Shown one piece after another: positions 29,650 through 57,444 of a stretch of 64,000 nt of DNA (position 1 is the stretch's first letter; each line of letters begins with the position of its first letter). The DNA comes from Bryum argenteum (Eukaryota > Streptophyta > Bryopsida > Bryales > Bryaceae), in assembly GCA_037043015.1 (NCBI GenBank), contig CM073323.1, positions 21,976,758-22,040,757 on the forward strand. The letters run 5' to 3'. The notes under the pieces are model-generated. The model did not search any database, was not told the DNA's origin, and worked only from the letters and a program-made list of their open reading frames with translations. The position numbers and the translations under genes are program-made.

Positions 29650-32157
29650 TCAGGTGTCGTCATAGTGGATGCGGGCAGTGGCGAAGGTGAAGTTCTGGCC
29701 AGGGGGTTTGGAGGTCTGCACTATGGTAACCACAATATCATCAACATAGTCAAGCCCGAGCTGCAGGAGCTTGGGGCCGATGGCGCCGCGCCACACGCGC
29801 TTGGGGTTGAGGGTGGCTTGTCCGATGTGCGGGTTGTAGTTGAAGGAACCGAGGTACTCAGGGCACTCGGCGCCCATGGAGGCGTTCGCTTGTGGAAAGA
29901 AAAGGTACACTTTCAAGTGAATCGATTGCGTGATGTTGGGGATGCGCAAGCCGGCGAATTCCATCACCTCCGTTTCGAGGCCTTGCCGGTCCCGCGCCCT
30001 CTCCACCCGGAACGTGATCGGCGCGAGAGTCACTACCTGCTTCGTTGTGTGCTTAGAGGTGTTGCTGATCAAGTCCGCCACTGCGCTTGGTGCCATCGGG
30101 GCGCACCGCGTTATGCTGTTCTCCTCCCCTGCACTCACCCCGTTCGTCACCCATGGCGTCGCGAGTTCCTCATACTTGTACCTGCAGCTCAGCTCCCAGC
30201 CATCCATCAGCTAACTTTCATCAGAGAACTGATACTCTTCTGATTACAGTCGTAACTCCACTCAAAATTTACGTATACCAGCCAGGGAGTTGCGGTACTA
30301 AATAATCGAAACTTTTGTTCTGATTAAGGTGGAACCACCATTCCATTCGTGCTTTGAGCTATTGGACGTGCTTATTGCAGCAAGTTAGAGCATGCACACA
30401 GAGAACTTCTTGCGCTTGAAACTCATCAACTTTTGAAATCGACCATTCTAAAGTTCAAGGGTTGTAAACACCTGTGTGTACTCTACGACCATATACCTAT
30501 AGATAGTAGATGAGAGTATCTCAAGCTTACCGTATACAGAATTTCGCAAATTCCCTGTTTAGGGTTGAAATATAACTCTAGTTCTATCTCTGACGAGAAT
30601 GTTTCAGCCTAAGCTTGATGAGAGGGTTGCAAACAATATCTTATACGCTCATTACGCTGTTTAGGGTAATATTATGCTTGTTTCAAGAATTGGCAGGAAT
30701 TGGCACGATAAGAGTAGAGTGATCGGATGCTCACTTCAGGAGGTTCATGTCGAGGACTTGCGAGACGTTCATCTTGACGAGATTGGCGTCCTCGTCGTAG
30801 TACGTGAACTGCGAATTATTGAAGTCGCAATCCGAGGGAAACGTGCGAGTGCCGCCGGGGAGTTTGGTCCACAAGTTCCACAAGCGATCGATGTTGCCGT
30901 GATGCACGTAGAACATGGGATCCCACGCCGCGCGCCCAAAGTTCCCCATGTCGTCCAACGGCAGCAGCGGCGGCTGCGCCTCTAAGTACCCAACCCATGC
31001 GTGGACTGGCCCATGCGGCTCGTCCTCCAGAGTCCCCATGCCCGCGCCCCCCCAGTCCCCAAATCTGTCACCAAAGTTCTCATTCCTGAATCACAACATA
31101 CCCATGGACCAGAACTCCCTCAACTAATTCAACATTTCCTCATACACTCTAGATTCCAGAAATTTAACGTCCACCATAACTCGAAAGTACTTGCACTGTC
31201 ACTCCTGAATCTAGCGTCTGTTTCATACTTAATGCGAAAAACTAATATTGCTCCTCGTGATATGGACATAGATTTCTGCTTGAGCTTTGCAGATTACCAG
31301 AGAAATTCGTCAGCGGGTTCCATGACTGCAATTAATGAATTTGCTGTTATACCCGGTTACACAGCAGTCAGCGAATGAGAAAGTATGAACCTGTAAGGCA
31401 TTCCAAACATGAGCGATGGAGTGGGCGCGCCGAGGACAAGCTGGTTGTACATCAGGCGATCATTCCGGACACGCAGCTCTGCAGCGGTCAAGGTGGTACA
31501 CCCGCCGCCTCTCGTTTCCAAGTCGACGATAAACGGCGGAGCGGAGCAGTTGTTGCGGTTCAGGTTCCAGAGTGAGGAATTCGGGTTGGTGTAGAAAACG
31601 GGTAGAGCATTCGGGAGTGGGTCGGTCTCCATGGAGTTATCCCAGGCCCAGTACGGCAAGGAGAAAGTGTTGTCGTCGAGCAGCTTGGCGAGAATGCGCT
31701 CGTGCCAATACAAGAACATGCGGTGCCAAGGCAGGAAGAACCAGCCGCTATGAATCTCCAGGGGATACTTCTGGCTGGGGAAGTAGAGCGCATTGTCGCA
31801 GTACAGGCAGTGCAAGTTCATCTGGTTCAGCAGCGATCGCGGGTCAGTGTCCGGCAGCGCGCGCAGAAGCCCGTACGCCTTCTCCAGCCGAGATTGCTCA
31901 AACTCTGTGAGCAGGTGCACCGGACGCCTCGTCCGCCATGGCAACGAGCCGGGCTCGTCGTGCTCGTACGCCCGCACCCCGGGAGTTCCGGTGTATGGGA
32001 CCGGCATGCAGCAGCGGTCTATGCTGTTGCACTGGTTCGGAATGTGCGAGGCAGGGACCGGTTGCGCTTCCACCATCGCCACCACGAGGACCATAACCAC
32101 GAACAGTACCGACGTGTACGCCATGACTAGCCAGCAGCTCGCTCTAGATCGATCCAT
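29650..32157 (-). CDS. Secreted polyphenol oxidase (type-3 copper, tyrosinase/catechol oxidase)
   Basis: Three exons, 31391-32157, 30735-31064 and 29650-30181, join in phase to about 542 residues. The N-terminus is a hydrophobic signal sequence (core SVLFVVMVLVVAMVEA), so it enters the secretory route rather than plastids. An inner ATG at 32124 (MAYTSV) may be the true start. The CuA site is HCLYC (His116, with Cys120 for the thioether bridge), IHSGW (His136) and PWHR (His145). The CuB site is HGPVH (His273, His277) and FYVHHGNIDRLW (His310/311). N-terminal cysteines (QCNSIDRCC) match the family's disulfides. The third exon holds the C-terminal PPO1_KFDV-type shielding domain. The enzyme oxidises o-diphenols to quinones with O2. 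No missing copper ligand is seen. Its paralogue at 48.3-49.4 kb is decayed. Confidence 0.93.
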
Positions 32158-34862
32158 CGATCTAACGCTCACACACCTCCTTCACTTACATCGTGCATGG
32201 GGATCGCACTGTCAGTTGCGTATCTAGATGTACTGATACTGTCGGTAATAATTCACGCCACTGATCTTGACTCAACACCAAACTGTCATCCGATCGAAGT
32301 ACATACCCGTCACTCAGACGCCCACAATCCCTAAACAAAGCATGTCGAAAACACAAAGATCATACTTGTACTTTCATAGTTGAAGATAAGCAGCACCGTT
32401 CCAGCCAGCTAGTATCTAGCATGACCTCAGCTTCGATCTACTACAAACTGGGGCCGGCTTCTGCATGTACACGTATGACCAGCTAGAGATTATACAACAT
32501 ATACATCGAATAATTTAAACCCCAGCATCTGTAAAATGACTAGTTCGATAACCTAATTGCCCGCCTTCGAAGCTAGTCAGAGACATTATTCGAAACGAGA
32601 GTTCACAGGTGCTCCCAAATCTAATATGCTAGGCTGGCGGCACAAATCATGCAGTTAGATTCAATCAGGTCCCGCACTTTCTTTCACGAGCTCTCATGAA
32701 CGTACGTAGATGATCACACTGCTCGATCTGTCTCGTTTCAGTTCTAGATAGTTGCTATGCAACACGATCAGTGGGAAGTTGATCGTCGACCTTTATTGAC
32801 TTTCTAATCTGCTTTGTCGGACCCATTGTTATCTTAACTCATTTGAAGTACGCTACATGAATCTAAGCAAAAGCTTGCTTGGCGATGAGAGATTTTTAGC
32901 TGACTTTCTGACTTGAATATCGACTCTGGAATACAAAACCGATACACAGATTTCCGTATCGTTGAATCGGCTGCGGTCGTAGTTCAATCAGAAACTGAAA
33001 GCTTCGGGAAACGTGACCATTCAATCCAGCTGCGATCAAAGCGAAACAAGATCCCGCTCTTAAGTCCACCCACGATGATTGACCTTAATATTCTCTTGCA
33101 AGCACAGTCAGGCATTACTGGTGCCAAAATTGTTTCAAGCATCAACTTCTGGACAATCTTTACAGCTGTATCAAACAACTAAAAGAATGTAGTGCACTAG
33201 TTGTGCGGTCACTTTACTAGTAGAAAAGTGTCCTGAATACTTTTCTACTCGTGCTTGTGAACTTTTCTATGCATATTGTCATTTTCTAGCCCACTCATAA
33301 ATATGCAGCAGATTTTAAACTTTTATTTGAAACTATCTATCTTCTTAGAAAGTGGTTGGTGTGGTGTACGTCAGGTAGAGAGAAGCGATTACACTCAACC
33401 TTCTGTAATGACCTTCATCAGGCCAGAAACTGTAGTAGAAACTCAACAAGCTATCCTACTTGATGTGTCCATTTCAATAAACTATGTAACAAGGTAATTG
33501 GAAAGTCACATAATGTACACAATCACCATGCTCGGAGAAAACATGGCAGACTCTTAGCTTATTGAATTAATATTGTCTTGAGATGTGGTAATACAGAGCT
33601 GCTTTTTTAATCGCACGTCACCTGACGTGCATTTGCGACAAGTATGATCCCACAATGAGGCAAAAGCATGATTGAGTGTGATCACTTGTTTTAATGCACG
33701 TGAATGATATGAAAACTAAACAAATGTCAATCTAGGAAATCTTTGTCATAAAGCTCAAGCTATCTTCAGAAGGTACACAATAGTGTGATCCGTACAGTCA
33801 AGGAAAAAAATATCTATAAGGAGAAATATCTTAAGATCAAGCTTTGGTTGTGTGTCCAGAGAGAGAGAGCAGAAAAGCGTATTAGTCAACATAAAACTCC
33901 TAAAAGTGAAAATAAATTTATCTTACACAAGTTCACCTAGAGTATGTTGAAGCTTTCTTAGACTACCCACGAAATTCCCTAAAGCTTCTCAAACCTAGGA
34001 TCACTCAGGACTCCCCTAACATCAATAATTTGAGTTTTCTGTAAAATAATAGGCATGGTTGTCTTATGCGACACTGTCAAACGTCATACAAACATTCACC
34101 TCACTGTCAAAGTAGGTAGACGAAATCGAAGAGACAAATGTTCATATTTTTTCTATGCATTTTCTAATATGGTCGGACATTTCCGTCAAACTCTAAATCA
34201 GACAATCACAAAAATTTAGAGAGACATTAGAGAAAGTGTGTCATGTAAAACAACCTTGGTCATACGGAGTTTACACCTGTTTATCTAGAGTCCTGGGCAA
34301 TTTTGAAGAATGCCAACCAAAACAACTTCTAGTAAGTTGCGCATGCAATGATCGAGTGACTAAACTTGAGAGCTTGTGTAAAGAATTTTTTTGTGCTTGA
34401 GTACGCAAGATCATTCTTGCGTACGTCAAAAATGAACTGGATATAAGTGGAAAACTGGAAACTCTCCAGGCTTTTGAGTCATTTATTTGAATTGGTTAGA
34501 GCACACTGTTCATGGATGGAAGCAAGCAAGCAAGTGATCGGTTATGGAAGAAGGGTTGGACTTTGGTGAAAGCAGAGGAGACCAGGAGCATAAAATGCAA
34601 GAACAAGTCGTGGGAGAGAGCAATCAGTTCATTTCCATTATTTTTCATTCGTGGTGATAAAACTATTTCTTTTTGGACAAATACCCCACATGCACTTTTT
34701 TGAAATAATTTTACTGTCCTTGTAACTGAAGAGAGGAATTATGATAGAGTAACCCACACCGCATCGAAAACCAACCTCTACAGTTATCCATAGAGTGCTC
34801 AAAAACCAACCCCCATGAATTTTCTAAATGGATGAGTTTCATGTACTTGTACACTGTTTGGT
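32158..34862. other. Intergenic region upstream of the polyphenol oxidase
   Basis: No gene was recognised. The part up to about 32720 is shared, diverged, with the region upstream of the pseudogene at 49.5-50.0 kb, so it belongs to the duplicated segment and probably includes the promoter. Short palindromes occur: GCACGTCACCTGACGTGC at 33613-33630, which contains the TGACGT core recognised by TGA-type bZIP factors, and GTACGCAAGA...TCTTGCGTAC at 34401-34424. Neither can be tied to a transcript. Confidence 0.45.
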
Positions 34863-38156: not shown

Positions 38157-38438
38157 CACTACTAGAAAAAAGGGGGGGTAAGCAATGTGACAAATATTGC
38201 TTTTTGTGCAAACATTGCTTACTTGGGCAATGTCTTGGGGCATGCTTTAGCACCCCTTCCCAAAAAAATAAGCAATGTTTCAACCTCAAATCTATTAAAT
38301 TGTAGATCTTAGGTTGAAGACATTGCTTATTTTCTTGGAAGGGGTGCTAAAGCATGCCCCAAGACATTGCCCAAGTAAGCAATGTTTGCACAAAAAGCAA
38401 TATTTGTCACATTTCTTACCCCCCTCTTTTCTAGTAGT
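38157..38438. mobile_element. Fold-back CACTA-like MITE (left part)
   Basis: The element starts CACTACTAGAAAA and is an almost complete palindrome. About 115 bases from 38157 pair with the stretch ending TTTTCTAGTAGT at 38438 (shared blocks include GGGGTGCTAAAGCATGCCCC). The final base of the inverted end (G) now lies at 44336, because a hAT element was inserted into the terminal CTAGTAGT. The original length was about 283 bp. The flanks ATC (38154-38156) and ATT (44337-44339) fit a 3-bp duplication with one change. A near-copy of the empty site (GAAATTGAC) is present at about 44400. Confidence 0.75.
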
Positions 38439-38763
38439 CAGGGAATAAATTTGAAGGGTTGCTTGAATTTTATAGGGAAGGGTAACTTAAAATTTTGCCT
38501 TTCAAAATGAAAGGTTACCTCAAAAATTGCCCTTCATGTATGTATTGAAGTTTTTGTTGAGAGTGCACTTTACCATTTAAGCGATGTTGAAAACTACAAT
38601 ATAAGTGAGACCAAAAAACACACATGGTGAAAAGATGGAACTATTTCATTAATGAGACATTGATATTTGAGTATATTGAAACGGTAATCACATCTCAACA
38701 TATTGATAATCTCGAGGACAACAAGAAAGTAGTAATAAAGATGTAAAAAACTCACAATCTAAA

Positions 38764-41700
38764 TCACTCTTCAAATCTTCTATCCTTCACACTCATCCAC
38801 CTCTCCCAAATATCTTCAAAATCAAGAGACTCCATAGGAAACTTCGCCATCGCAATCCTCATCAAGGCCTCCAAGGTGGTGATATTTAGAGCACATCTCC
38901 CAGAAGATTTTATAAGATTTTGAGTTGAGAATCCCCTCTCGCAACTAGCTGTGCTTGCAGGAAGCGTCAATATCACTTGCCACAATTGTGTCATGTGTGG
39001 AAATCTGCTCAAGTAGTCTTCGGTAGATGCAAAAATGGCCCATGCATGGTGCATTTTTAATCCAACACATGCTACTTGAAGAGTATCTACAAAACTCTTT
39101 AGCTCAGAAATACATCCATCATGATTTACAAGTCTGCATCCTCTTAAACAAAAGTGATTAAGCAAGACTTGTAACCATAAGTGTGCATTCCGATATAGAA
39201 GTGGCAACTCCGTAGGATAAGAAATAGGGCTAAAATTTTTGGTGGCGTTGAAAACCCGCATATCAGGGAACCTGGCTTGTAAGGAATCGATAACACCTTG
39301 TACATATTCTTGTGCCAATCTCTTGCAAGCATCAAAAGTATAGCCCGAATCACCACAACTTGGAATTTCTTGGAAAAGCAAAGTATGGCTGTGAATGGTA
39401 CCAGTCTTGTCTCTATACTCAATAATTCCATCATTTGCAACCTCCATGAAAGTCTTTATATACTTCGAATCACCACCAAAGTTCTCGGCATCTAAAAACA
39501 TTTGAGTCAATGACCTTGTTGTTAATTCAATTTGTGCTCCAAGTTGACTGAGATCTACATTCTCAGTTTGAAAATTTTTGCTCAGAAAATTAAGGTCTTG
39601 TAGAACATCAGCCAACAAGTAAATACAAAACACCACTTTGAAGATTCTCAAATCATTGTATAGTTGTTGATCAGAGTCCCTGCACATACACATATGAAAA
39701 TATGAATACAATCAAAGCCCTTTCTAGGATGTTTAATAAATAAACTAGAATGCAAAGACATCTTCTATATTCTTTTATGTTACACCTTATGTAAAAGTTC
39801 AAGTGATAGAGAACAAAACATTACATACCTGAACAATGTCAAAAGAGCTGGCAAGATATCCGCAAAGCGCGTCATAACTTGCCCCATGCTTAGCCATCTC
39901 ACACTATGCACATGTAATAGTTTGACTTTCTCCATATCCATGATCTTCAACAAACCTTGCAATTCTCCATTTCGAAGTGAAGACATACCAATCCAACCAT
40001 AGATTCTGTTTGCTAACCTCTCAAGAAAACCCAATTGTTTGATTTTCTTAAAGGCATCTGATGCAGCGAGAGCCTCACGATGGGCAATACAATGGACACT
40101 AAATAATCCTGGAACATCTCTTTTGAGTTTTGCTGCGAAACCATTGTGCACACCTAACATAGCTGCTGCTCCATCTGTAGCTAGACCTACAAGTTTAGAA
40201 CTTTCTAACCTGTATAAAGCACATGTGCTCATCCATGCATCATAAATGGATTGAGCAGTGCCATTACAAATTGCAGAGAGTGAGAGAAATAAGCTTTTAG
40301 GTTGGCCCAATCCACCTTTGTCAATATATGAAAGATACACTATGAGATGAGACTCAAGTGATCTATCTGTTGACTCATCTAATAGCAAAGAAAAGCAAGG
40401 ACTGCTCCTTACTTCCTCTACTTGTTTTGATTCAATGTGTTGAGAAATAGCAGTTACAAACTCCCTTCCCGATACGGCATTTCCATAGGTAGCATAATCG
40501 TTTGTACCAGGCAAGCCTCCAAAGTCCATGTCTTTTGCAAAATTACACATGGATGTGTAACAAGACATAGGAAGGCAATTGAGTGCAATAAAATATATAA
40601 ATTTCATTGCACATATGATTTTGGCCTTCATACCTTCGGTTATGCAAGACACATGCTGGGGAATAGGCTTGCATTGTCCATTCATTGCAAGCCATCGGGT
40701 CCTTGCATAGCAGTGGCGCGTAGATTTGTTGTGGTCAATAAGAGCTCCTGTGAGCCAAAAAACCACTTTGGGGTGGCAATTGGTCACAAGGATCAAGATC
40801 ACAAGAGAAATGAAGAAGGGAAGAAGGGAAACAAGGAGAGGATGAAGAACAAGGGAAAGAACAAGAAGAAACCACCGGCCGGATGCATTTTTAAGTACCC
40901 TTCAGATTCTAGGCCGCCATTTCTCCATCCTAGCTCGGAATTGGGCGTGCATTAGCTTTTTAGAAAGCCAACTTAATTGTGCATCTACCCTGAAAATCTC
41001 AAAAGCATAGGACAAAAAACCTAGGACTGATTGCCATTTGACTGGGCCTTGTTTTTATACCATCCGGCCGAGAACACCTTCAACACTACTGACTTTGGGA
41101 GGTGATTTCTCCCTCCCTACAGATCGGAATTGGACGAGCCATATACCAAAAGAAAGCTACTGAGGAGATCTACCAGCATCCTAAATCTCAATCGATTTGG
41201 ACTAAAACCGAGGGACTGATGGCTATTTGATCTGAGAGGCACTTCCAAGGAGATGAGCAAATGACAACAATCTACAAGGAAGAGCAAAAACAAGGAAAGA
41301 GGGGAGCAAGAAGAGAGAGAAGGAGGCCCATGGCCTTCCTTCTCTTCACTAACTAAGCATTAGAAGAGGGAGAGGGAGAACACCAACATGAATCAATGAA
41401 CAAGAGGGGAATGGATTGATTGATTGTAGCTTGAAAACAAGCTCTTAAGTACAAATGGAGGAGCCGCCAAAGAGGCGGCTCACCCTAACCCTAAGGCCCT
41501 AATCTAAGGCCTCCATGGATGAATGACGCTCCATCCTCCATGGCGCTCCATCCTCCATGACCCTCCACCTTGAAGAACCCCTACAAACGAATGTAACTCA
41601 CAATTGCCACCACAAAGTCAATTGGACAAGACCAAAACAATCAAGTCTCAAACACAAATATGAACACCCGAGGTTAATTGTGCAAGGCCAATGGTAAAAC

Positions 41701-42628
41701 ATCTAACTCTTAATCAAGCAACTAACCCTATTTCTAATTAAGGATCCACTAGGGGGATTCATTCCTCCTCTAGTCCTTCCCCATCAAACTATGGATCCAC
41801 TAGGGGGATTCATTCCTCCTCTAGCCCTTCCACACTAAATCTAATCTAAAGCTTAAATAAATGCCAAACATCCTATCCAAGGCCTTACAACAACCATCCT
41901 CAAACATGCATATTGTATTCAAAACTTAATTATCTTAATTTCACCAATCTACTTCAAAATGACATTTGCTAATTAACAATTCATTTATAAAAGTAACAAA
42001 TAAACAATAACATCAAAGGAGAGCAATAACATGCTCTCACAGCTCCTTTTTGCAAATTCCGTGTACCCTCGCCCTTTCCAAGAAGGCCCTTCACTTGAAA
42101 CCTTTCACAATAAATGCATTTCACACGAGTAAGACCATTCACTATAATAGGACGTACCCATGGAAATTGAAGTTTCCATTGGTCCCGAAAGCCACGCTCT
42201 TTTGTTGTACGACTCTTTCCTTCATCTCCACCACTCGCCAAACGATCCAACATCAGCATATGAAGATGTTCGTGTTCCTCGGTAACATGATTAGACCATG
42301 ATGGTTGAAGCTGGCTTGACCCTTCTCCCAAAAATGTTGGTTGAGGGTCATTTGATCCTTCTTCCAAAAATGGGGGCTCAGGCTCATTCAAAAATGAAGG
42401 TTGGTGCTTGTAAGAGTCCTCGTCAATAACAACATTCAAATCCAAATTGTCATGAAGAGGATTACTGGGTCCAACCGGCTCATGTGAAATCTCTCCAACG
42501 AGCGCATGAGGAATCTCCACAACGGGTTCATGAGAAGTGTCAACAATTGGTTGAGAAATCTCTTCAATTCTGGGTCTTTTCATGAACCCCGCCAATGTAG
42601 GTTGCATCATGACCTTCCTGCACCCCAT
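38764..42628 (-). pseudogene. hAT transposase (ZNF862-like), interrupted by an LTR insertion
   Basis: The coding parts are 42042-42628, 39829-40743 and 38764-39679 (intron 39680-39828 with GT/AG). Without the insertion at 40749-42041 the frame would run through for about 805 residues. Part 1 has a BED-like zinc finger (FPWVRP...VKCIYCERF). Part 2 has the catalytic region, with SLLLDESTDRS, GLATDGAAAMLG, HCIAHREALAA and VRWLSMGQVM. Part 3 ends in the hAT dimerisation domain (LTLPASTASCERGFS). No other frame break was seen, so the transposase was probably functional until the LTR element landed in its exon. The remote possibility that the insertion is spliced out as an intron is not supported by donor phase. 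Confidence 0.85.
40749..42041. mobile_element. Solo-LTR-like insertion in the hAT transposase exon
   Basis: A 1293-bp sequence beginning TGTGAG and ending CTCACA, flanked on both sides by GCTCC (40744-40748 and 42042-42046). The TG...CA ends and 5-bp duplication are those of an LTR retrotransposon. No internal coding region or second LTR is present, so it is best read as a solo LTR left by recombination. A 39-bp unit (GGATCCACTAGGGGGATTCA...) is repeated at about 41743 and 41793. Orientation is uncertain. Confidence 0.8.
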
Positions 42629-43331
42629 GCTGCAAACTTCATGAATTAGGACACATAAGATGAGATTAAGGATAGAGAAGAAGCATACCAAACTTCAAAA
42701 GCATACAAAATAATGACACAAGGTTCATACACACACAACCACAAAATAGATGTGAGATTCTAAAATATCTATATAGGGTAAGACTCTTCAAGAGTACAAA
42801 TATGATTTTTGTAAGGCTCTTCAATAGTTCAATCGGCATGTTTGGTGAAGCAAAAGAACCTCAGAACAATGCGAATCAGTTGAAACCACCGTTTCATATG
42901 CTATTTCTTGAGGCAGCAGTTCTCTTTTAAAATCAGTACAGAAGTTTCAGGTCAAGAGTAAAAAACCAATGAACGTGATCAGTTTACCTGCAGTTGCCAA
43001 GAATTTATGTCATTGAGATCTTATCAGTTTCCTTCTCAAGGATTCCCGAACATGATATTATGATTCTCTGCTTCAAACTTAAAAGAAAGAACTTACAGTC
43101 TAAGAACCCATTCTGATTTTTCAATTTATAAAACTAATACGATACTGTACATGTAAAGTCTACAAGTAACCACACCCGATCTACATGCAACCACTTTCCA
43201 AGACAATTTGTGATTCATCTGGAGTTTCCAAACAACTCAAGGGAATTGACTTGATTAAAAAGTTAGCTCTAGTGAGCATAAAAAACGAATGAAACTATAT
43301 ATATGAGGTGTGGTCGTGTGGGGTTATGTAC

Positions 43332-43607
43332 CTCAACAGTGGTGGTGTAGAGACCACCAGCGAACTTCTCACCTCACTCTTCACACCCTTGATTATAGGC
43401 ACGGCGAGCAGCTCCTCGTACACCTGCAATAGAGCTCCAAAATCTCAAGCACCTGTCGATGTACAACAAATTAGCTCGTTGTGATTCAAATTAGAATGTG
43501 AAACCCGAGGCAGTGGTGAAGATATAAAAGTGTGACGAACCTCTACGTCCGCTTCTGCTTTGGTGGCGAATGCAGTATGACCTTCTTGCCACAAGAACTC
43601 ACGACTC
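43332..43607 (-). pseudogene. Captured prolyl-tRNA synthetase exons inside the hAT element
   Basis: On the minus strand, two exon-like blocks are separated by a GT/AG intron. Block 43541-43607 encodes SREFLWQEGHTAFATKAEAD followed by VE. Block 43332-43423 encodes VYEELLAVPIIKG and KSE, then, after a one-base frame slip, EKFAGGLYTTTVE. These are consecutive, highly conserved segments of the class II prolyl-tRNA synthetase catalytic domain (motif 2 REFLWQEGHT and the KFAGG region). Upstream and downstream exons are absent, so this is a transduplicated fragment that kept its intron; capture was therefore at DNA level. It lies in the same orientation as the transposase and 5' of it. The frameshift shows it does not encode working enzyme. 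Confidence 0.85.
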
Positions 43608-44336
43608 CTGCACGAATCTCACATCAGAATTCTGAAAAACTACAATCAAGGCTCCAGTAACCTCTTTTGTCTGCAGTGTTTCATGTTTACCACATCTATT
43701 TGCATGCAGAAAACTGATAAAGATTTGCTTGCTATCCTCACTTTAAGGTTTGATGTCATGTAAATGAGGTCTCGTCCACCATCCACCAGGCCGGCAGTGA
43801 GTCTGAACAAGCGAGTGCAGCAGAGACACAAAGTGACAAGGGTTGCCGGGTTGGAACTTCGAACTTCGAAAAGTACAAGAAGCCTATTGACTTTCGTGAA
43901 ACAGCCAAACAGGAGCGGAGCTGCGGTCTAGTGTGGAGGAATTAGGCAAAGACGGCAACCCTGACTGGAAGAGCCGAAGTCCGAAGAGACGAAAGAGTGA
44001 TTGAGTGCAGCGAAATTGGCGAGTGGCAACGCGGCCGACGCCGCCAACTTCATGACTGTGCGTCTGGTGGTTGGTGCGAGTGTGCCACCACTGGCCACCA
44101 TATTGATGGTTCACTGGTTGTCTTCGGCTGTTCAAACTCTAAAAAACATGTCTCATGTCTGTTCATATGTTCATTATCAGGGAAGGGTTACTTTTTTTTT
44201 ACCGTTCATTTTGAAGGGTTTACAAAAAATTACCCCTTCCGTTTTGAAGGGTTGCAAAATATTTTGAAGGGATAGTGAAGGACTGGAACCCAAAATAAGG
44301 GTAATAGCCCTTCAATTTTATTCGCTGCTAGTAGTG

Positions 44337-44490
44337 ATTGACAATCATAAAGCAATGTCTTCAACGCTTGACGGTGGCTTGCTGATTGATTTGAAGCTTG
44401 AAATTGACAATCATAAAGCAATGTCTTCAACGCTTGTCGGTGGACGTGAACGTCACGAGTCCAACCGGTTGTAAGCCACCGCAGCTTCCA
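44337..44490. repeat. 66-bp tandem duplication at the insertion flank
   Basis: ATTGACAATCATAAAGCAAT at 44337 recurs at 44403, giving a 66-bp tandem repeat with one or two changes. The stretch GGCTTGCTGATTGATTTGAA within it also occurs at 38127-38146, immediately left of the MITE. The MITE therefore inserted into one unit of this array, and the neighbouring unit preserves the uninterrupted target. Confidence 0.75.
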
Positions 44491-45372
44491 CATCTTTCAA
44501 CCAAACTTATTATGCTTCTTTTCTGATGAAATTTTCCGTGTCGGTATTCATTCATCATTCATCGGTATTCACTCATCCTAATGTCATAAGTAGTGGCCTA
44601 TCATGGTCATAGATTTATTTAAGTTCTACCCTTAGCCATGGTAGAGTGAAACTTAGGGTGGGCTTGGGCGAAGTATCACATGGGACACAATATCTTTTAT
44701 CTTATGACATGATGAGGTAGGTTGACATGCCATATTATATATTTGTATCTTTGTACGTCCAACATGCTAATTGTGATTGCGCCACTTTTATGTTTTTATA
44801 CTCTTACGTTCTGCATGCTAAGTTTGTACGTGCCACTTTATGTGTTTTTATTTTTAGCAGGTTAACTTTGGTCATATCATTTATTTGGAGCACCTTATGG
44901 TTCCTTCTTTTGTTGATTCTATGATGTAGTTTCATATCTTCAACATGTTAAGTTTGGACACATACTCATATCGTCTATTTGGAACATCTTCTAGTTCATT
45001 CTTTTATTGATATATTCTATGACTTAGTCTCACAATGTCTGTTTAAAGTTGCTCATCCTCAAAATAGATTTTAAAATTAAAAGATGAATAATCAAGGATA
45101 TTTTTGTACATGAGAAATTTGAATTTAATGATACAATAAGAACACTAAACAATTTATTTTGAGAAAAGAAGAATGAAAAATGATAAAATGAAAACACTAA
45201 ATCAATTTATTTTAGGAATGAAGCAATGGAAAACGCATGACCAAGACATTGCACTTCCTTTCAAATCCTGTGACAACTACAACCTTACATTTAATCATGC
45301 ACTCAAAAGAATGTACATTTCGAGATGTATCATCAAGTTAGAGTAATGAAGAAAACTCATGTGAAAGTCTAA
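44491..45372. other. Intergenic AT-rich stretch
   Basis: No gene or clear element is seen. Between 44720 and 45010 there are loose repeats of phrases such as CAACATGCTAA/CATGCTAAG and GCCACTTTTATG/GCCACTTTATG at about 80-bp spacing, suggesting an old degenerate tandem array. Confidence 0.35.
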
Positions 45373-48267: not shown

Positions 48268-49403
48268 TCGACCCCCTGGATGCAGCGCCTTCGCGTCAAA
48301 GTTCCCTACCCACCCGTGAACAGGCCCATGCGGCTCGTCCTCCAGTGTCCCGGTCCCAGCGCCCCCCTGCTGTCCCCAAATCTGAACAACCATCTGAGCC
48401 TGACTTGTAGTATCCAAATAGATTACGACCACCTCAACAAATCCAACACTTTGCAATCCTTTTAGTTCCCAGAAAATTAACGGCAATCATAACTTCAAGA
48501 TAGTTGCACGGTCACTCCCGAATCAAGCGAAAGACTACTACTGCTCCTCATGATATGGATATCGATTTCTGCTTGAACTTTACACATTACAACAAACATC
48601 CATCAACGGAATCCATGACTGCATCGAAAGAATTTGCCGTTATCCGGTTCGTAGAACACTGCAGTCAGCGAGTGAGAGAATGTGAACCTAAAAGGCATTC
48701 CAAACATGCGCGATGGTGTAGGCGCACCGAGTACGAGTTGGGTGTACATCAAGCGATCATTCCGGACACGCAGCTCCGCGGCGGTCATGGTGATACATCC
48801 GCCACCTCTCGTGTCCAAGTCGATGATAAACGGCGGAGCGGAGCAGTTGTTGCGGTTCACGTCACACAGTGTGGAATTCGGGTTGGCGTATTGCGAGGGG
48901 AGAGTATTCGGGAGCGCGTTCGTGTCCATAGTTTGCCCCAAGCCTTGGGCGGCAAGGAGATTGCTGACGTTAAGCAGCTTCGCGAGAATGCGCTCGTGCC
49001 AGAACAGATACATTCGGTGCCAAGGCAGGAAGAACCTGCAGCCATTGTGAATCTCCAGAGGGTACATCTGGCCGGGGTAATAGAGCGCATTGTCGCAGTA
49101 CAGGCAGTGCAAGTTCATATCATGGTTCAGAAGCGATTCAAGGAGCGTGTACGCCTTCTCCAGCCGAGACTGCTCAAACTTTGAGAGCAGGTGCACTGGA
49201 CGCTGCGTCCGCCATGGCAACGAGCCCGGCTCGTCGTGCTCGTACGCCCGCACCCCAGCATGCCAGTGTAGGAGATGGGCATGCAGCAGCGCTCGAAGCT
49301 GTTACACTGGTTAGGGATGTCCGGGGCAGGAATCAGTTGCGCTTCCACCGTCGCCACCACGAGCACTGGTCATAACTATGAATAGTACCGAGCTGTACGC
49401 CAT
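48268..49403 (-). pseudogene. Decayed, truncated polyphenol oxidase paralogue
   Basis: Homologous to the polyphenol oxidase gene at 29650-32157. It keeps the start (MAYSSVLFIVM at 49403), HCLYCDNALYYP, PWHRMYLFWHERILAKLL, the exon 1 end (MFGMPFR) and the start of exon 2 with HGPVHGWVG. It carries several disabling changes: a 4-base insertion in the signal peptide region, a 1-base deletion before RAYEHDEP, and loss of the LPYWAWD block in a shifted stretch. Homology stops abruptly at about 48270, within exon 2, so the third CuB histidine and the whole C-terminal domain are missing. Intron 1 is also recognisably shared. It is not expected to make enzyme. Confidence 0.88.
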
Positions 49404-49764
49404 GACTAGCTAGCTCGCTCTAGAGCGATCAGTGGATTCCTTACCCACCCACTTCACTTACTTCGTGCATTGTCAATACGCGTCGCTAAATGAACTGATC
49501 CCTTCGGTAATGACATGCATAAGGTTACACCCAATCCTTCAAAGCCCATGACTTGTTCAACAACCTAATTGTGTGCCTCCAGAGCTTAACAGAGTCTTCA
49601 TTATTCGAAGTCACTTCGTATTTTGTTATAATGGAAATATTGAACGCTTTTGGGAAAATACAGTTTAGCTCGAGTCAGCTAAATGTACCCACAGATTGGG
49701 TACTTGTGTGAAACTGATCGTGAAACTGATCAAAACAACCAATCGTGGGTGTTTTCGAATGTCC

Positions 49765-51788: not shown

Positions 51789-52202
51789 TGTTGATATACT
51801 CCACCTCAGCACAATACGCAAGAGACTAACGAAACTGACAGCTGGACGTATAGCTGGACGTATAGCAGCTGCAATCAGTGCCCTGTTTGAATGTCTCATC
51901 ATGATGCAGATTCCCCCGCCTACCGGCCGTCACTGAGTAGTACTAGTTACAGGATTAGCTCTAGTATCTCTCTCTCTCTCCACTGAATTAGTGCTAAGGA
52001 AGCTGTGAGCTCCAAGATTCAGTGTGTGCCTTGTGTTAGTGGGAGCTAGGTTACTTCTGATGTACGCATTGTGCCAAGCTACTCTGATTTAATCTAAGTG
52101 TACGGGACTTTCTGCTTAAAACTGTGGATACTCTGTCAGTGATCCTTTGTCCAAGTGAATGTTCAGCACGTGTCTCGGTAAAACTTTCCTCCTCCATCTA
52201 CA
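51789..52202 (+). repeat. 5' LTR of the Copia element
   Basis: 414 bp from TGTTGATATACTCC to CCTCCATCTACA. I see no difference from the 3' LTR. It contains a direct repeat AGCTGGACGTAT at 51840-51863 and a short CT-microsatellite. The start was fixed by the last base shared with the 3' LTR and by the CTCCT target duplication outside it. Confidence 0.95.
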
Positions 52203-52214
52203 GGTTATGGGCCC
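52203..52214 (+). promoter_or_regulatory. Primer-binding site matching the initiator tRNA-Met anticodon arm
   Basis: Immediately after the 5' LTR the sequence is GGTTATGGGCCC. Its complement GGGCCCATAACC is, from my knowledge of plant initiator tRNA-Met, the anticodon stem-loop (about nucleotides 29-40) rather than the acceptor 3' end. Drosophila copia is known to prime from a half-tRNA cut near nucleotide 39. The usual plant Copia site TGGTATCAGAGC, which pairs with the tRNA 3' end, is not seen here. Confidence 0.75.
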
Positions 52215-52396
52215 TGCTCGCTTCCTTTAGAAATCCACTGAGCGTTACAGATTAGGAAAGTGCTTTCCAGTACGATCTACTGTGTCTACAGTAAACCAGT
52301 CGCTGTGCCTACAGCAAGTCCAATCACGCTTGTCAGTGTCCTTGTTGCGCCGGCAACAAAAACCCTGTATCAGTCCTTAGCAGTACCGCACGCATC

Positions 52397-55300
52397 ATGG
52401 ATGCAAATGCCGAGCTCCGTAATGTCAAATGCTACAACGGTCAGAACTTCCATCTTTGGAAGTTCCAACTGCGCGCCATACTTCTTGGCCACGATCTCAT
52501 GGGTATCGTAGATGGGTCTGTCCCCAAACCCACAGACACTGCCGCACAAGCTGCGTGGGTGAGAAAGGATAATCAGTGTATTTCCTTGCTCTGTAAAGCC
52601 ATAGACGAGTCCATTCTTGAGATTCTCATGAACTGTGCTACCTCGAAAGCCATATGGGATAAGCTAAAATTGCTTCATGATCAATCCGCTCACGAGTCAG
52701 TCCATCACATCCAACAGCGCTTTTACGAGTGCAAAATGGACAGTTCCGACACTATCGCTTCTTTCCTAGGCAAACTCGAAGTGATTAAGAGCTCCCTCAT
52801 TAACATGGGGGACAACTCAATCTCTGATGCTAGTCTCATTGCCAAGGTTCTTGCGAATCTTCCTTCTGCACAGTACAGCTCGTTTCTATCCGCCTGGGAC
52901 AACGTTGAGGATGCATCACGCACTCTCAACAATCTCACCATTAGGCTGTTACGTCACGAAACTCGTCTAAAGCTCGAGGAAAAGGCGGCAGAGAACATCG
53001 CTGTTGCCTACGCCACAACGTACAACAGTTCGAACCAGTCCTCGCTTTCTTCCGCCAATCGTCCTCAGCTCACATATGAGCAGCGCCAAGAACGTAGAGT
53101 CCAGATCACTGAACGCAAGAAGGTTACTCCATGTTGGAAGTGTGGTCAGTTAGGCCATTGGGCTAGAGAGTGTCCCGCCAACCAGCAAGATCCCACTGAT
53201 CTACTTCCCCAGTCCCACACAGCCTCGAAACCACCCACGCATCGTGCTTACATGACCACAAGCAGCGTCGCTGACCATTCTTCATGGTATGTCGACAGTG
53301 GATGTACCGACCACATGACCAATACCCGAGAGTTTTTCTTTAAGTACACCGATATCTCGCATGAGCATCGAACTGTTCAGGGTGTCGGAGGAATCCTCTT
53401 AGAAGTCGTCGGTGTCGGGGATATTAACGTCCAAGTCCACCTCGCTGATCGAGAGGACTTTGCAACGCTTACTGATGTGTTGCTTGTTCCACGCTTAGGA
53501 ACCAGTCTCTTTTCCTCTCAGAGAGCAGCTCAAAAGAACATAGATACTATCACTTCCAAGCATTCCTGTCGACTCGTTACCCAGGAGGGTGAAATAGTCA
53601 TGAGCGGCGTATTAACCAGCAAGCTCTACAAACTGCTGATCACACCTTTGCTCCCCAGTGACATAACCGCTCTCCACGTTGGTAGTTTTGGCGTAGTGCT
53701 CCAAAAAGATAGTTTACAGCCATTAGATGTTTGGCACAAACGTCTTGCACATGTCCATCATGACATGCTCAAGAAAATGTCCTCTCGAAACACAGTAGAG
53801 GGTCTCGCTATTCTCTCTCGTCCAGGACCACCACCATTCTGCACAGGTTGTGCTTACGGAAAGATCCACCGCTGTGGCTTTCCCTTCAATGACGAGCGTC
53901 AAAGGCAACATGCAACTGGCGATTTGGTTCACTGCGACATTTGTGGGCCGATGAGCCAGCCTACGGTGAATGGAGCACGCTACTTCATCCTCTTCAAGGA
54001 CGACGCTACCGGCTTTCGCGTCGTACAGTGCATGGCAAAGAAGTCTGAAGCGCTGCGGCACTTCAAGGATTTCGTGGCGCAGCTCACTCGCGAAACAAAC
54101 AACCGCGTCCACCGGCTACGCACAGATCGAGGCTCCGAATTCACTAGCTCTGCCTTCCGAGATTTCTTGCACCAGCACGGCATCGCCCAAGAAATGACGA
54201 CGCCCTACACACCGGAACAAAACGGAGCAGCGGAGCGCGACAACCGTACCATCATGGAGGCAGTTCGCAGCATGATATACTCAGCAAATGTTCATACGAA
54301 GTTTTGGGGCGAAGCACTCCACACTGCCGTATACTGCCTTAATCGCAGTGGCAGCCGCATGCTTGACGGCGAAACCCCATTCGAGCGCTGGCATGGTGTC
54401 CGCCCATGCGTTTCCCACATACGAGTATTTGGGTCCGATGCGTTCATCTTCATCCCTACTGCGCTGCGCACCAAGCTGTCACCGAAGAGCACCAGGGGCA
54501 TCTTCATGGGCTTCAGTCAACATAGTAAGGCGTATCGCATTTGGGTCAACAGCTCCAAGAAGATTGTTGAGTCCCGTGACGTCCTTTTCGACGAAACCAG
54601 TGTTCTACGCGGTATCTACGGCGAAACCAGCGGTCAAGCACCAGTTCGCACTGGACCACCTCCATCGCTCTTCTTTGTCGATCAGGCTGCTACACGAACA
54701 TCTGCGCCAGTACACCTTCCACCAGTGCCGATGGGTGGCCCACCACTTGGACCTCCTCCAGTCGCAGTGGGAGTCCAGCAGCCTGCTGCAGTCGCAGTGG
54801 CAGTTCAGCAGCTTGCTGCCGTAGCAGTAGGAGTTCAACAGCTTGCTGCAGCCCGCGTCGAGCTACCGCACCCTGCACCTGTTCCAGAATCTGCATCGGC
54901 AGATGAAGTCGAACTCACACCTGCAGACCCAGCTGACCAGAGTGATCCCACGTCGTTGGAACCAGCGAACACCTTCAGCAACTCGTCAGCGCATATGTCC
55001 AACTCCGAGGCGGAACCCATTGAAGAAATTTTCGGTGGACCTCGTGACTCTGTTGATGCCACACTTGCCCAGTGGCACGACATCACTTTTGCTAAGGCCG
55101 AAGTCTGCATACCACTCTCGCTGACTCCAGCTGCCGAGCCGTCAATCCAACCAGAAGATCATTTGCAAGACGCTGATCTCCACTCAGCACCACCAACTTA
55201 CGATAACATCGAGCTTTCAACCGCAAGCCTTGGTGAACCTATTGTGGACCTCTCCATTGATGGAAACGTGGTAGAGATACCAGATGCGCCACGAGGTAGC

Positions 55301-56995
55301 AGTCCTCCGCACGACCTTCCACCTCGCATACGCAAACCTCCAAACCGCTATGGTGAGTGGGTTTGCCCAGACCAACAGCCTCCATATGCTGGCATGGTGC
55401 ATTTGGGACAGCTCCCATCCGAACCTCCTATCGAGCCGCATACTTACCAAGAAGCTCTAAAGTCGGATGAATCCCAACACTGGCAGGATGCTATGACTCA
55501 GGAGTATAGCTCACTCATGAGCAATGGCACATGGACACTTAGCGAGCTACCGCCAGGACGTAAGGCCATCCAAAACAAATGGGTGTACCGCATCAAAATG
55601 GCTGCCGATGGCACTGTGAGCAGGTTCAAGGCACGACTTGTGGCGAAGGGGTTCTCGCAACGGGAGGGCGTCGATTATTCGGAAACGTTCTCACCTGTCG
55701 TCAAGTTCGACTCCATACGCACGATACTTTCCGTAGCTGCCGCTGAGGACCTGCAGTTGGTCCAGTTTGATGTTGAAACGGCTTTTCTCTATGGGGAGAT
55801 TGCAGAGGAAATCTACATGGCCCAACCAAGAGGTTTTGCTGACTCCACTTCACCTCACCTGGTATGCAAGCTCCACAAAGCGCTATATGGTCTGAAGCAG
55901 GCGTCTCGCGTATGGAACAAACGCTTCCATGATTTTTTAGTCCAGCACAGCTTAGCTCCAAGCCAGGCCGACCCCTGCGTCTACATCAGCCTTAGCGGGC
56001 CATCAATCATCCTGGCCCTGTTTGTTGACGATGGCATCATCGCATGTAGTGACCACCAGCGTATCAACAAAGTCATCGAGTCCATGCGCGGCATCTTCAA
56101 CATCACCACCGGCAATCCAGAAGTGTATGTCGGACTACACATTACGCGCAACAGAGCTGAGCGCACTCTTCAGCTTGACCAATCCCGTTACATCCATCGG
56201 AAGCTGCAACAGTACGGCTTTCTCGACTGCGCGCCACTCTCTGTGCCTGCTGACCCACATGTGCAACTCGACCTCGCATCATCCATCGACGAAGGTACGA
56301 ACCCGAGCTTCCCGTATTCTGAAATTATTGGCAGTCTTCAATTTGCCAGCCAAGGAACTCGTCTCGACATCACATACGCCACGGGACACCTCTCTAAGTT
56401 TTCACGGAATCCACGGCACAGTCACATCTCCGGCGTCAAGCGCGTGCTCAAATACCTCCGCGGCACCCCCGACATGCGCATCACCTATGCAGCTACTAGT
56501 CACCCGAACGAGATGCAAGCCTTCTGTGATGCAGATTACGCAGGTGACGCAGACGACCGCAAGTCCCGCTCTGGATTCGTCATCACACTGAACGGCGGAC
56601 CTGTAGCCTGGGGCAGCCGCAAACAAGGCTGCATTGCAGCCTCCACAACCGAAGCTGAATACATCGCCGCGCACCTGGCCTCCCAAGAGATCATCTGGAT
56701 GCGACAACTTCTTCACGACCTTGGACATCCGCAAATCACACCAACTGTTCTTCGCAGCGACAACCAGGCCGCAATACGCCTTGTGCGCAATCCAGAGTTT
56801 CACCGACGCACGAAGCACGTCGATGTCAAGTATCATATCATCCGTGATCACTTCCAGCAAGGGCACCTAACGCTGACGTATGTGTCCACCGTTGACAATG
56901 TAGCTGACGTCCTCACCAAACCACTTCCTCGCGATCGCTTCCAGCGTCTCACTAGCATCCTCGGCCTCACCACCCTCTCATGTGGCACCGGTTAA
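52397..56995 (+). CDS. Copia Gag-Pol polyprotein
   Basis: 1532 residues without a stop. The Gag part (UBN2-like, FYECKMDSSDTIASFLGKLE) is followed by a CCHC zinc knuckle CWKCGQLGHWAREC at about 246-259. The protease active site is YVDSGCTDHM (Asp about 300). The integrase has its zinc-binding part (WHKRLAHVHH...CTGCAYGK) and then D-D-E residues at about 514 (HCDICGP), 577 (RTDRGSEF) and 613 (NGAAERDN). A Pro/Ala/Gln linker with three copies of an AVAVGVQQ-type repeat follows at about 790-820. The reverse transcriptase runs from NKWVYRIKMAADG to the catalytic LFVDDGI (Asp about 1211). RNase H has CDADYAGD, STTEAEYIA and DNQAAIRLV. The ATG at 52397 is the first that precedes the Gag homology. 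Confidence 0.96.
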   Translation: MDANAELRNVKCYNGQNFHLWKFQLRAILLGHDLMGIVDGSVPKPTDTAAQAAWVRKDNQCISLLCKAIDESILEILMNCATSKAIWDKLKLLHDQSAHESVHHIQQRFYECKMDSSDTIASFLGKLEVIKSSLINMGDNSISDASLIAKVLANLPSAQYSSFLSAWDNVEDASRTLNNLTIRLLRHETRLKLEEKAAENIAVAYATTYNSSNQSSLSSANRPQLTYEQRQERRVQITERKKVTPCWKCGQLGHWARECPANQQDPTDLLPQSHTASKPPTHRAYMTTSSVADHSSWYVDSGCTDHMTNTREFFFKYTDISHEHRTVQGVGGILLEVVGVGDINVQVHLADREDFATLTDVLLVPRLGTSLFSSQRAAQKNIDTITSKHSCRLVTQEGEIVMSGVLTSKLYKLLITPLLPSDITALHVGSFGVVLQKDSLQPLDVWHKRLAHVHHDMLKKMSSRNTVEGLAILSRPGPPPFCTGCAYGKIHRCGFPFNDERQRQHATGDLVHCDICGPMSQPTVNGARYFILFKDDATGFRVVQCMAKKSEALRHFKDFVAQLTRETNNRVHRLRTDRGSEFTSSAFRDFLHQHGIAQEMTTPYTPEQNGAAERDNRTIMEAVRSMIYSANVHTKFWGEALHTAVYCLNRSGSRMLDGETPFERWHGVRPCVSHIRVFGSDAFIFIPTALRTKLSPKSTRGIFMGFSQHSKAYRIWVNSSKKIVESRDVLFDETSVLRGIYGETSGQAPVRTGPPPSLFFVDQAATRTSAPVHLPPVPMGGPPLGPPPVAVGVQQPAAVAVAVQQLAAVAVGVQQLAAARVELPHPAPVPESASADEVELTPADPADQSDPTSLEPANTFSNSSAHMSNSEAEPIEEIFGGPRDSVDATLAQWHDITFAKAEVCIPLSLTPAAEPSIQPEDHLQDADLHSAPPTYDNIELSTASLGEPIVDLSIDGNVVEIPDAPRGSSPPHDLPPRIRKPPNRYGEWVCPDQQPPYAGMVHLGQLPSEPPIEPHTYQEALKSDESQHWQDAMTQEYSSLMSNGTWTLSELPPGRKAIQNKWVYRIKMAADGTVSRFKARLVAKGFSQREGVDYSETFSPVVKFDSIRTILSVAAAEDLQLVQFDVETAFLYGEIAEEIYMAQPRGFADSTSPHLVCKLHKALYGLKQASRVWNKRFHDFLVQHSLAPSQADPCVYISLSGPSIILALFVDDGIIACSDHQRINKVIESMRGIFNITTGNPEVYVGLHITRNRAERTLQLDQSRYIHRKLQQYGFLDCAPLSVPADPHVQLDLASSIDEGTNPSFPYSEIIGSLQFASQGTRLDITYATGHLSKFSRNPRHSHISGVKRVLKYLRGTPDMRITYAATSHPNEMQAFCDADYAGDADDRKSRSGFVITLNGGPVAWGSRKQGCIAASTTEAEYIAAHLASQEIIWMRQLLHDLGHPQITPTVLRSDNQAAIRLVRNPEFHRRTKHVDVKYHIIRDHFQQGHLTLTYVSTVDNVADVLTKPLPRDRFQRLTSILGLTTLSCGTG

Positions 56996-57030
56996 CTTCT
57001 GAGCATTTGTTAGTCTCTTGCGAGTGGGAG

Positions 57031-57444
57031 TGTTGATATACTCCACCTCAGCACAATACGCAAGAGACTAACGAAACTGACAGCTGGACGTATAGCTGGA
57101 CGTATAGCAGCTGCAATCAGTGCCCTGTTTGAATGTCTCATCATGATGCAGATTCCCCCGCCTACCGGCCGTCACTGAGTAGTACTAGTTACAGGATTAG
57201 CTCTAGTATCTCTCTCTCTCTCCACTGAATTAGTGCTAAGGAAGCTGTGAGCTCCAAGATTCAGTGTGTGCCTTGTGTTAGTGGGAGCTAGGTTACTTCT
57301 GATGTACGCATTGTGCCAAGCTACTCTGATTTAATCTAAGTGTACGGGACTTTCTGCTTAAAACTGTGGATACTCTGTCAGTGATCCTTTGTCCAAGTGA
57401 ATGTTCAGCACGTGTCTCGGTAAAACTTTCCTCCTCCATCTACA
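57031..57444 (+). repeat. 3' LTR of the Copia element
   Basis: 414 bp reading the same as the 5' LTR. It is preceded by a purine tract suited to plus-strand priming and followed by the CTCCT target duplication. Confidence 0.95.

Follow-up and report, generated by a model that had tools for sequence, protein, structure and literature searches.

A stretch of 64,000 nucleotides from Bryum argenteum (C3:21976758-22040757; hereafter the window) contains a transposable element of the hAT superfamily that carries, between its own ends, a fragment of a prolyl-tRNA synthetase (ProRS) gene with two exons and the intron that separates them. We are confident that a hAT element coding for its transposase captured this 443-bp piece at the DNA level and then spread with it, and that the short copies carrying it arose by deletion. 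The preliminary description of this stretch had placed such a fragment inside the hAT ends, 5' of the transposase and in the same orientation. Both statements hold: the matches to ProRS fall within the terminal inverted repeats (TIRs) and the flanking target site duplication (TSD), and the element ends and transposase domains put the piece between the 5' end of the element and its transposase, reading in the same direction.

The element is bounded by the TIRs CAGGGAATAAATTTGAAGGG and CAGCGAATAAAATTGAAGGG, whose inverted ends (CAGGG/CAGCG) are short and of the CAG type, with 18 of 20 end bases alike. CAG-type ends are typical of hAT elements. An 8-bp TSD, CTAGTAGT, is present on both sides. Among the 13,284 identical 8-mer pairs in the window (spacing 200-12,000 bases; 8-mers with fewer than three different letters excluded), this pair is the only one with at least 11 of 14 inverted end bases. 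The C-terminal part of the transposase contains the dimerisation domain of the superfamily, with PF05699 scoring 32 bits against a cut-off of 21.4. The parts of the element are as follows.

38439..44327, minus strand: hAT element, 5,889 bp including a nested insertion; defined by TIRs, TSD, transposase domains and two collinear long copies
38431..38438: left copy of the target site duplication CTAGTAGT, a perfect 8-bp direct repeat
44328..44335: right copy of the target site duplication CTAGTAGT, a perfect 8-bp direct repeat
42042..42694, minus strand: N-terminal open frame of the transposase with a zinc-finger-like stretch; weak zf-C17orf113 match, below cut-off
40749..42041, within the minus-strand host element: insertion of 1,293 bp resembling a solo long terminal repeat (LTR), TG...CA with a 5-bp duplication GGAGC, splitting the transposase
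39780..40748, minus strand: middle part of the transposase, DUF4371-like; E 6e-7, slightly below the Pfam cut-off
38764..39711, minus strand: C-terminal part of the transposase with the hAT dimerisation domain; Pfam PF05699 (Dimer_Tnp_hAT), E 1.1e-7, above cut-off

The transposase gene of the window copy is interrupted by the solo-LTR-like insertion, which is not present in the long copies on C1 and C3. At its left end, the hAT element abuts an older palindromic element (38158-38438) resembling a miniature inverted-repeat transposable element, into the end of which it was inserted; the arms of this older element are 92% alike as an inverted repeat and its ends read CACTACTAG...

The identity of the captured piece is clear from protein comparisons. 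The query set came from 80 prokaryotic loci, 74 of which had a usable full-length ProRS, and in tblastn all 74 match 43612-43320 on the minus strand. This interval accounts for 105 of the 141 pieces found in the window at E<=1, the remaining 36 all being at E 0.045 or worse. The exon reading, compared with solved ProRS structures, gives E 1.8e-24 (with X at both frame breaks in the query, one X being a surplus residue). A Pfam scan of 38300-44800 in the three minus frames, with stops as X, returned transposase-related domains and left the ProRS piece, which is short and split, undetected.

The host genome (259 Mb, 25 contigs) was searched at the DNA level with 42650-44327, giving 31 matches; such counts are lower bounds, and the number of ProRS loci rests on this search. 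Six matches lie in five hAT copies that carry the piece (one copy being hit in two parts), two are ProRS loci on C6, 14 cover the 5' end region only, one the leader, and eight a 57-bp stretch beside the piece. Locus A on C6 is an open ProRS gene, 82% identical to the cargo, with seven open pieces along residues 17-433 of one bacterial query. Locus B (L124, C6:14678082-14679730), at a distance of about 10 kb, is 78% identical to the cargo; its stops and frame breaks give it the appearance of a ProRS pseudogene. The element therefore holds host gene sequence within its ends while related genes reside elsewhere in the genome, as in transduplication.

Alignment to gene A, by which the edges of the piece were set, shows that the preliminary description was right about the two exons and the intron and too narrow in extent: instead of the 276 bases at 43332..43607, the capture covers 443 bases, 43766-43324, and ends with the first 8 bases of the next intron, beyond exon B. 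Its components, and the repeat-like stretch that adjoins it, are listed below.

43324..43766, minus strand: ProRS gene piece taken up by the element, 443 bp; aligns collinearly with host gene A (82%) and, in its 3' part, with the putative pseudogene B (78%)
43608..43766, minus strand: 3' part of the donor intron that precedes exon A; gene A has the same base at 116 of 159 aligned positions, 12 gap columns
43541..43607, minus strand: captured exon A, 67 bp, reading SREFLWQEGHTAFATKAEADVE; 64 of 67 bases as in gene A, ProRS match
43453..43540, minus strand: captured intron between the exons, 88 bp; 67 of 88 bases as in gene A
43332..43452, minus strand: captured exon B, showing two 1-bp deletions in comparison with gene A; 114 of 121 aligned bases agree, 2 gap columns
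43770..43826, minus strand: stretch of about 57 bp adjoining the ProRS piece, with similarity to a dispersed repeat or gene family; 8 of the 31 genome matches

Because introns are included in the piece, its capture took place at the DNA level, as had been proposed; the internal intron and the flanking intron parts are all collinear with gene A. One of the 1-bp deletions in exon B is common to all three long copies of the element, whereas the other, like an 8-bp duplication just beyond the piece, is found in the window copy only. With these frameshifts the long copies cannot code the ProRS stretch. The piece in the window would make no ProRS, and a role at the protein level is unlikely given the shared frameshift. 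A fusion of the ProRS exons with the transposase frame was considered and is unlikely, the ProRS frame being broken in each of the long copies.

The preliminary description had suggested a search for other hAT copies with the same cargo, and the host genome has at least five, that of the window included. Three are long (in the window, on C1 and elsewhere on C3) and two have an internal deletion (on C9 and C10). The long copies on C1 (L119) and C3 (L120) are 4,583 bp each and, apart from the 1,293-bp insertion that they lack, collinear with the window copy; compared part by part, the long copies are 95.9% to 99.0% identical. The edges of the ProRS piece are identical in all three, and its 5' part is present in both deleted copies. 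The C1 copy is flanked by GAGGGGGG/GAGGGGGT, in which 7 of 8 bases match, and the second C3 copy by CCTCGGGG/CTCGGGG, which is one base short.

Both deleted copies have perfect 8-bp TSDs, GCCGTGGT around the 1,624-bp copy on C9 and ACAACGGC around that on C10 (L122/L123, C10:6340644-6347943), which is split within a ProRS exon by an insertion into two parts about 5.7 kb apart. They have one deletion junction in common, at which exon B is joined to the C-terminal region of the transposase. GGA occurs at both parental sides of the deletion, exon B beyond the junction is lost, and only the C-terminal part of the transposase is retained. The five copies have five different flanking duplications, showing that the cargo moved with the element. 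Since at least five copies carry the piece at separate, duplication-flanked sites, capture preceded their spread. Three short relatives (1,034, 1,663 and 1,040 bp) have matching ends and perfect 8-bp TSDs without the cargo, and transposase relatives at about 50% identity are absent from the matches of the cargo DNA search.

Several observations weigh against this account. The outermost five 5' bases of the C1 copy differ from those of the other copies, and its end and TSD were for this reason placed by position. None of the three long copies has intact transposase frames, and the lesions differ from copy to copy. A gap that separates the middle from the C-terminal frame in each of them is probably an intron; with this gap set aside and each copy damaged differently, the ancestor that carried the cargo may have encoded a full transposase. 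A long copy of the same subfamily free of the cargo was not seen. Clear microhomology at the cargo edges was likewise not seen in the alignment of the copies, and it is on the repair step of the proposed mechanism that this bears. Finally, the genome DNA search found no near-identical donor, the best match being 82%. The comparison with the host gene that the preliminary description had recommended for dating the capture does yield a relative, gene A; with no near-identical donor found, it gives neither the exact donor nor an age.

The events most likely ran as follows. A transposase-coding hAT element acquired the genomic ProRS piece in its 5' leader; the piece was probably filler, copied in from elsewhere when an excision gap was repaired. 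Errors in the repair of an excision break are a capture route cited in work on maize (PMC3260210), and a fusion of neighbouring elements by aberrant excision is described as another (PMC13317346). The 57-bp stretch beside the cargo, which is 83-90% identical at the seven loci examined out of eight (L111-L117) and lies there within a larger repeat or gene family, is a possible second captured filler, and a match of this kind to another repeat family would look like patchwork filler. The loaded element then moved, piece included, to three or more sites. In one copy an internal deletion removed most of the transposase, and this derivative, presumably moved again in trans, gave rise to at least two short cargo-bearing copies. 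The piece in the window would now be a passenger, probably without function, in the leader of a broken transposase gene.

The source of the piece deserves separate consideration. Between the window cargo and gene A, 64 of 247 intron sites differ (73-76% identical) as against 10 of 188 exon sites (94-95.5% identical; Fisher p 3e-9). Since the introns have diverged from the host gene by 26% and the exons by 5%, the donor may have been a lost or ancestral ProRS copy. Exon substitutions on the cargo number five (plus two gaps), compared with about 24 expected when half of the intron divergence is taken as the cargo's own neutral change. The reconstructed ancestor of the cargo has six exon differences from gene A, all of them synonymous. 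These counts point towards a donor that was a functional ProRS copy, by then separate from gene A. A variant of our explanation, differing from it in the donor only, builds on these counts and holds that the piece was taken up, shortly before the spread, from outside the gene A lineage, its source being another working ProRS copy since lost, absent from the assembly or belonging to a foreign species. We consider this a real possibility, if one we are somewhat inclined to doubt. No closer ProRS sequence was found by the genome DNA search, as this variant would have it. However, a slowly changing cargo or a fast gene A fits as well: in the middle intron, polarised by pseudogene B, 12 changes fall on gene A and five on the window cargo (p 0.14). 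This comparison covers few sites, and in the first intron B aligns poorly. The exon rate of the cargo does not differ from its middle-intron rate (p 0.30), and its overall rate (10/276) is lower than the middle-intron rate of gene A (12/88; p 0.0015). That the cargo was captured in another lineage and imported within the hAT element, which would make it a foreign sequence marking the arrival of a loaded transposon by horizontal or hybrid transfer, we hold to be improbable.

Other explanations were also weighed. The captured exons could serve the element, either by providing the transposase with a spliced 5' leader exon or by giving rise to small RNAs against ProRS. All four splice-site dinucleotides around the two exons are retained in the window copy, and the piece lies upstream of the transposase frame in the same orientation. 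Such splice sites, however, are equally expected of a young passive passenger, none of the three long copies could make a ProRS-type peptide across exon B, owing to the shared frameshift, and the deleted copies lack exon B beyond the junction. A service of this kind is therefore unlikely, if marginally less so than import from another lineage. We attach very little weight to the idea that the piece entered this hAT copy after it had landed here, for example inside another nested element. The window copy does hold one nested insertion, in its transposase, but C1 and C3 have long copies in which the same piece occurs with the same edges, and both deleted copies retain its 5' part.

Least credible of all is a resident, degenerate ProRS gene around which hAT ends occur by chance. 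The fragment is indeed degenerate, but the window has no second ProRS-like piece better than E 0.045 in the protein search, the end pair with its TSD is unique among the 8-mer pairs scanned, and the whole unit recurs elsewhere with other TSDs. The preliminary description had named two outcomes that would speak against it, a full ProRS gene at this place and exons outside the hAT ends; no such gene was found in the window, and the fragment lies inside the ends.

A carrier of the MULE, Pack or Helitron kind nested around the ProRS piece was also looked for, by pairing left edges at about 42000-43332 with right edges at 43608-44327 and scoring inverted ends together with duplications of 2-11 bases. 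The 20 top-ranking end pairs are weak and chance-like, the best of them consisting of short duplications with partial inverted matches, and there is one weak Helitron-like site.

Capture by a hAT element that carries its own transposase had been described as less well known than capture by other transposons. This is true in degree, although there are precedents. The Hatvine-6 hATs of grapevine share transposase coding sequence and TIRs, and often contain genic introns and exons in a variable region that matches the host (PMC2528002). The present element resembles them in this respect and differs in that one cargo is common to at least five copies; the TSD apparently listed for Hatvine-6 in PMC2528002 is also longer, at 9 bp. 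Maize Ds2-22 likewise carries two consecutive exons with the intervening intron, which are argued to have been captured from genomic DNA (PMC3260210). Unlike the element described here, it is a non-autonomous Ds whose donor gene was identified; in our case transposase sequence is found in the long copies, and the most similar host gene reaches only 82%.

Pack-TYPE elements have also been reported within the hAT superfamily, being defined as non-autonomous; elements with a transposase match are classed there as autonomous and not as Pack-TYPE (PMC8903248). Like these, the present element has host gene DNA between its TIRs that moved as a unit, and the C9 and C10 copies come close to them. The window copy, with its transposase domains, falls outside that definition. 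A literature search for capture of ProRS by transposons gave no match. The hAT element with ProRS cargo is a clean instance of a process already known in plants: a well-bounded capture by a transposase-bearing hAT, with a related source gene, loaded long copies and short derivatives in one genome. It makes visible the path of an ordinary transposon towards Pack-hAT-like elements, and for gene annotators it means that such fragments should not be called genes.

Elsewhere in the window, F-box-like frames were noted by eye. The segments 30967-32249 and 48282-49511 are 76% identical, the second including a match to tyrosinase (polyphenol oxidase). A Copia element at 51789-57444 has an open frame of 1,566 codons and two 414-bp LTRs; as these are 100% identical, its insertion is very recent.
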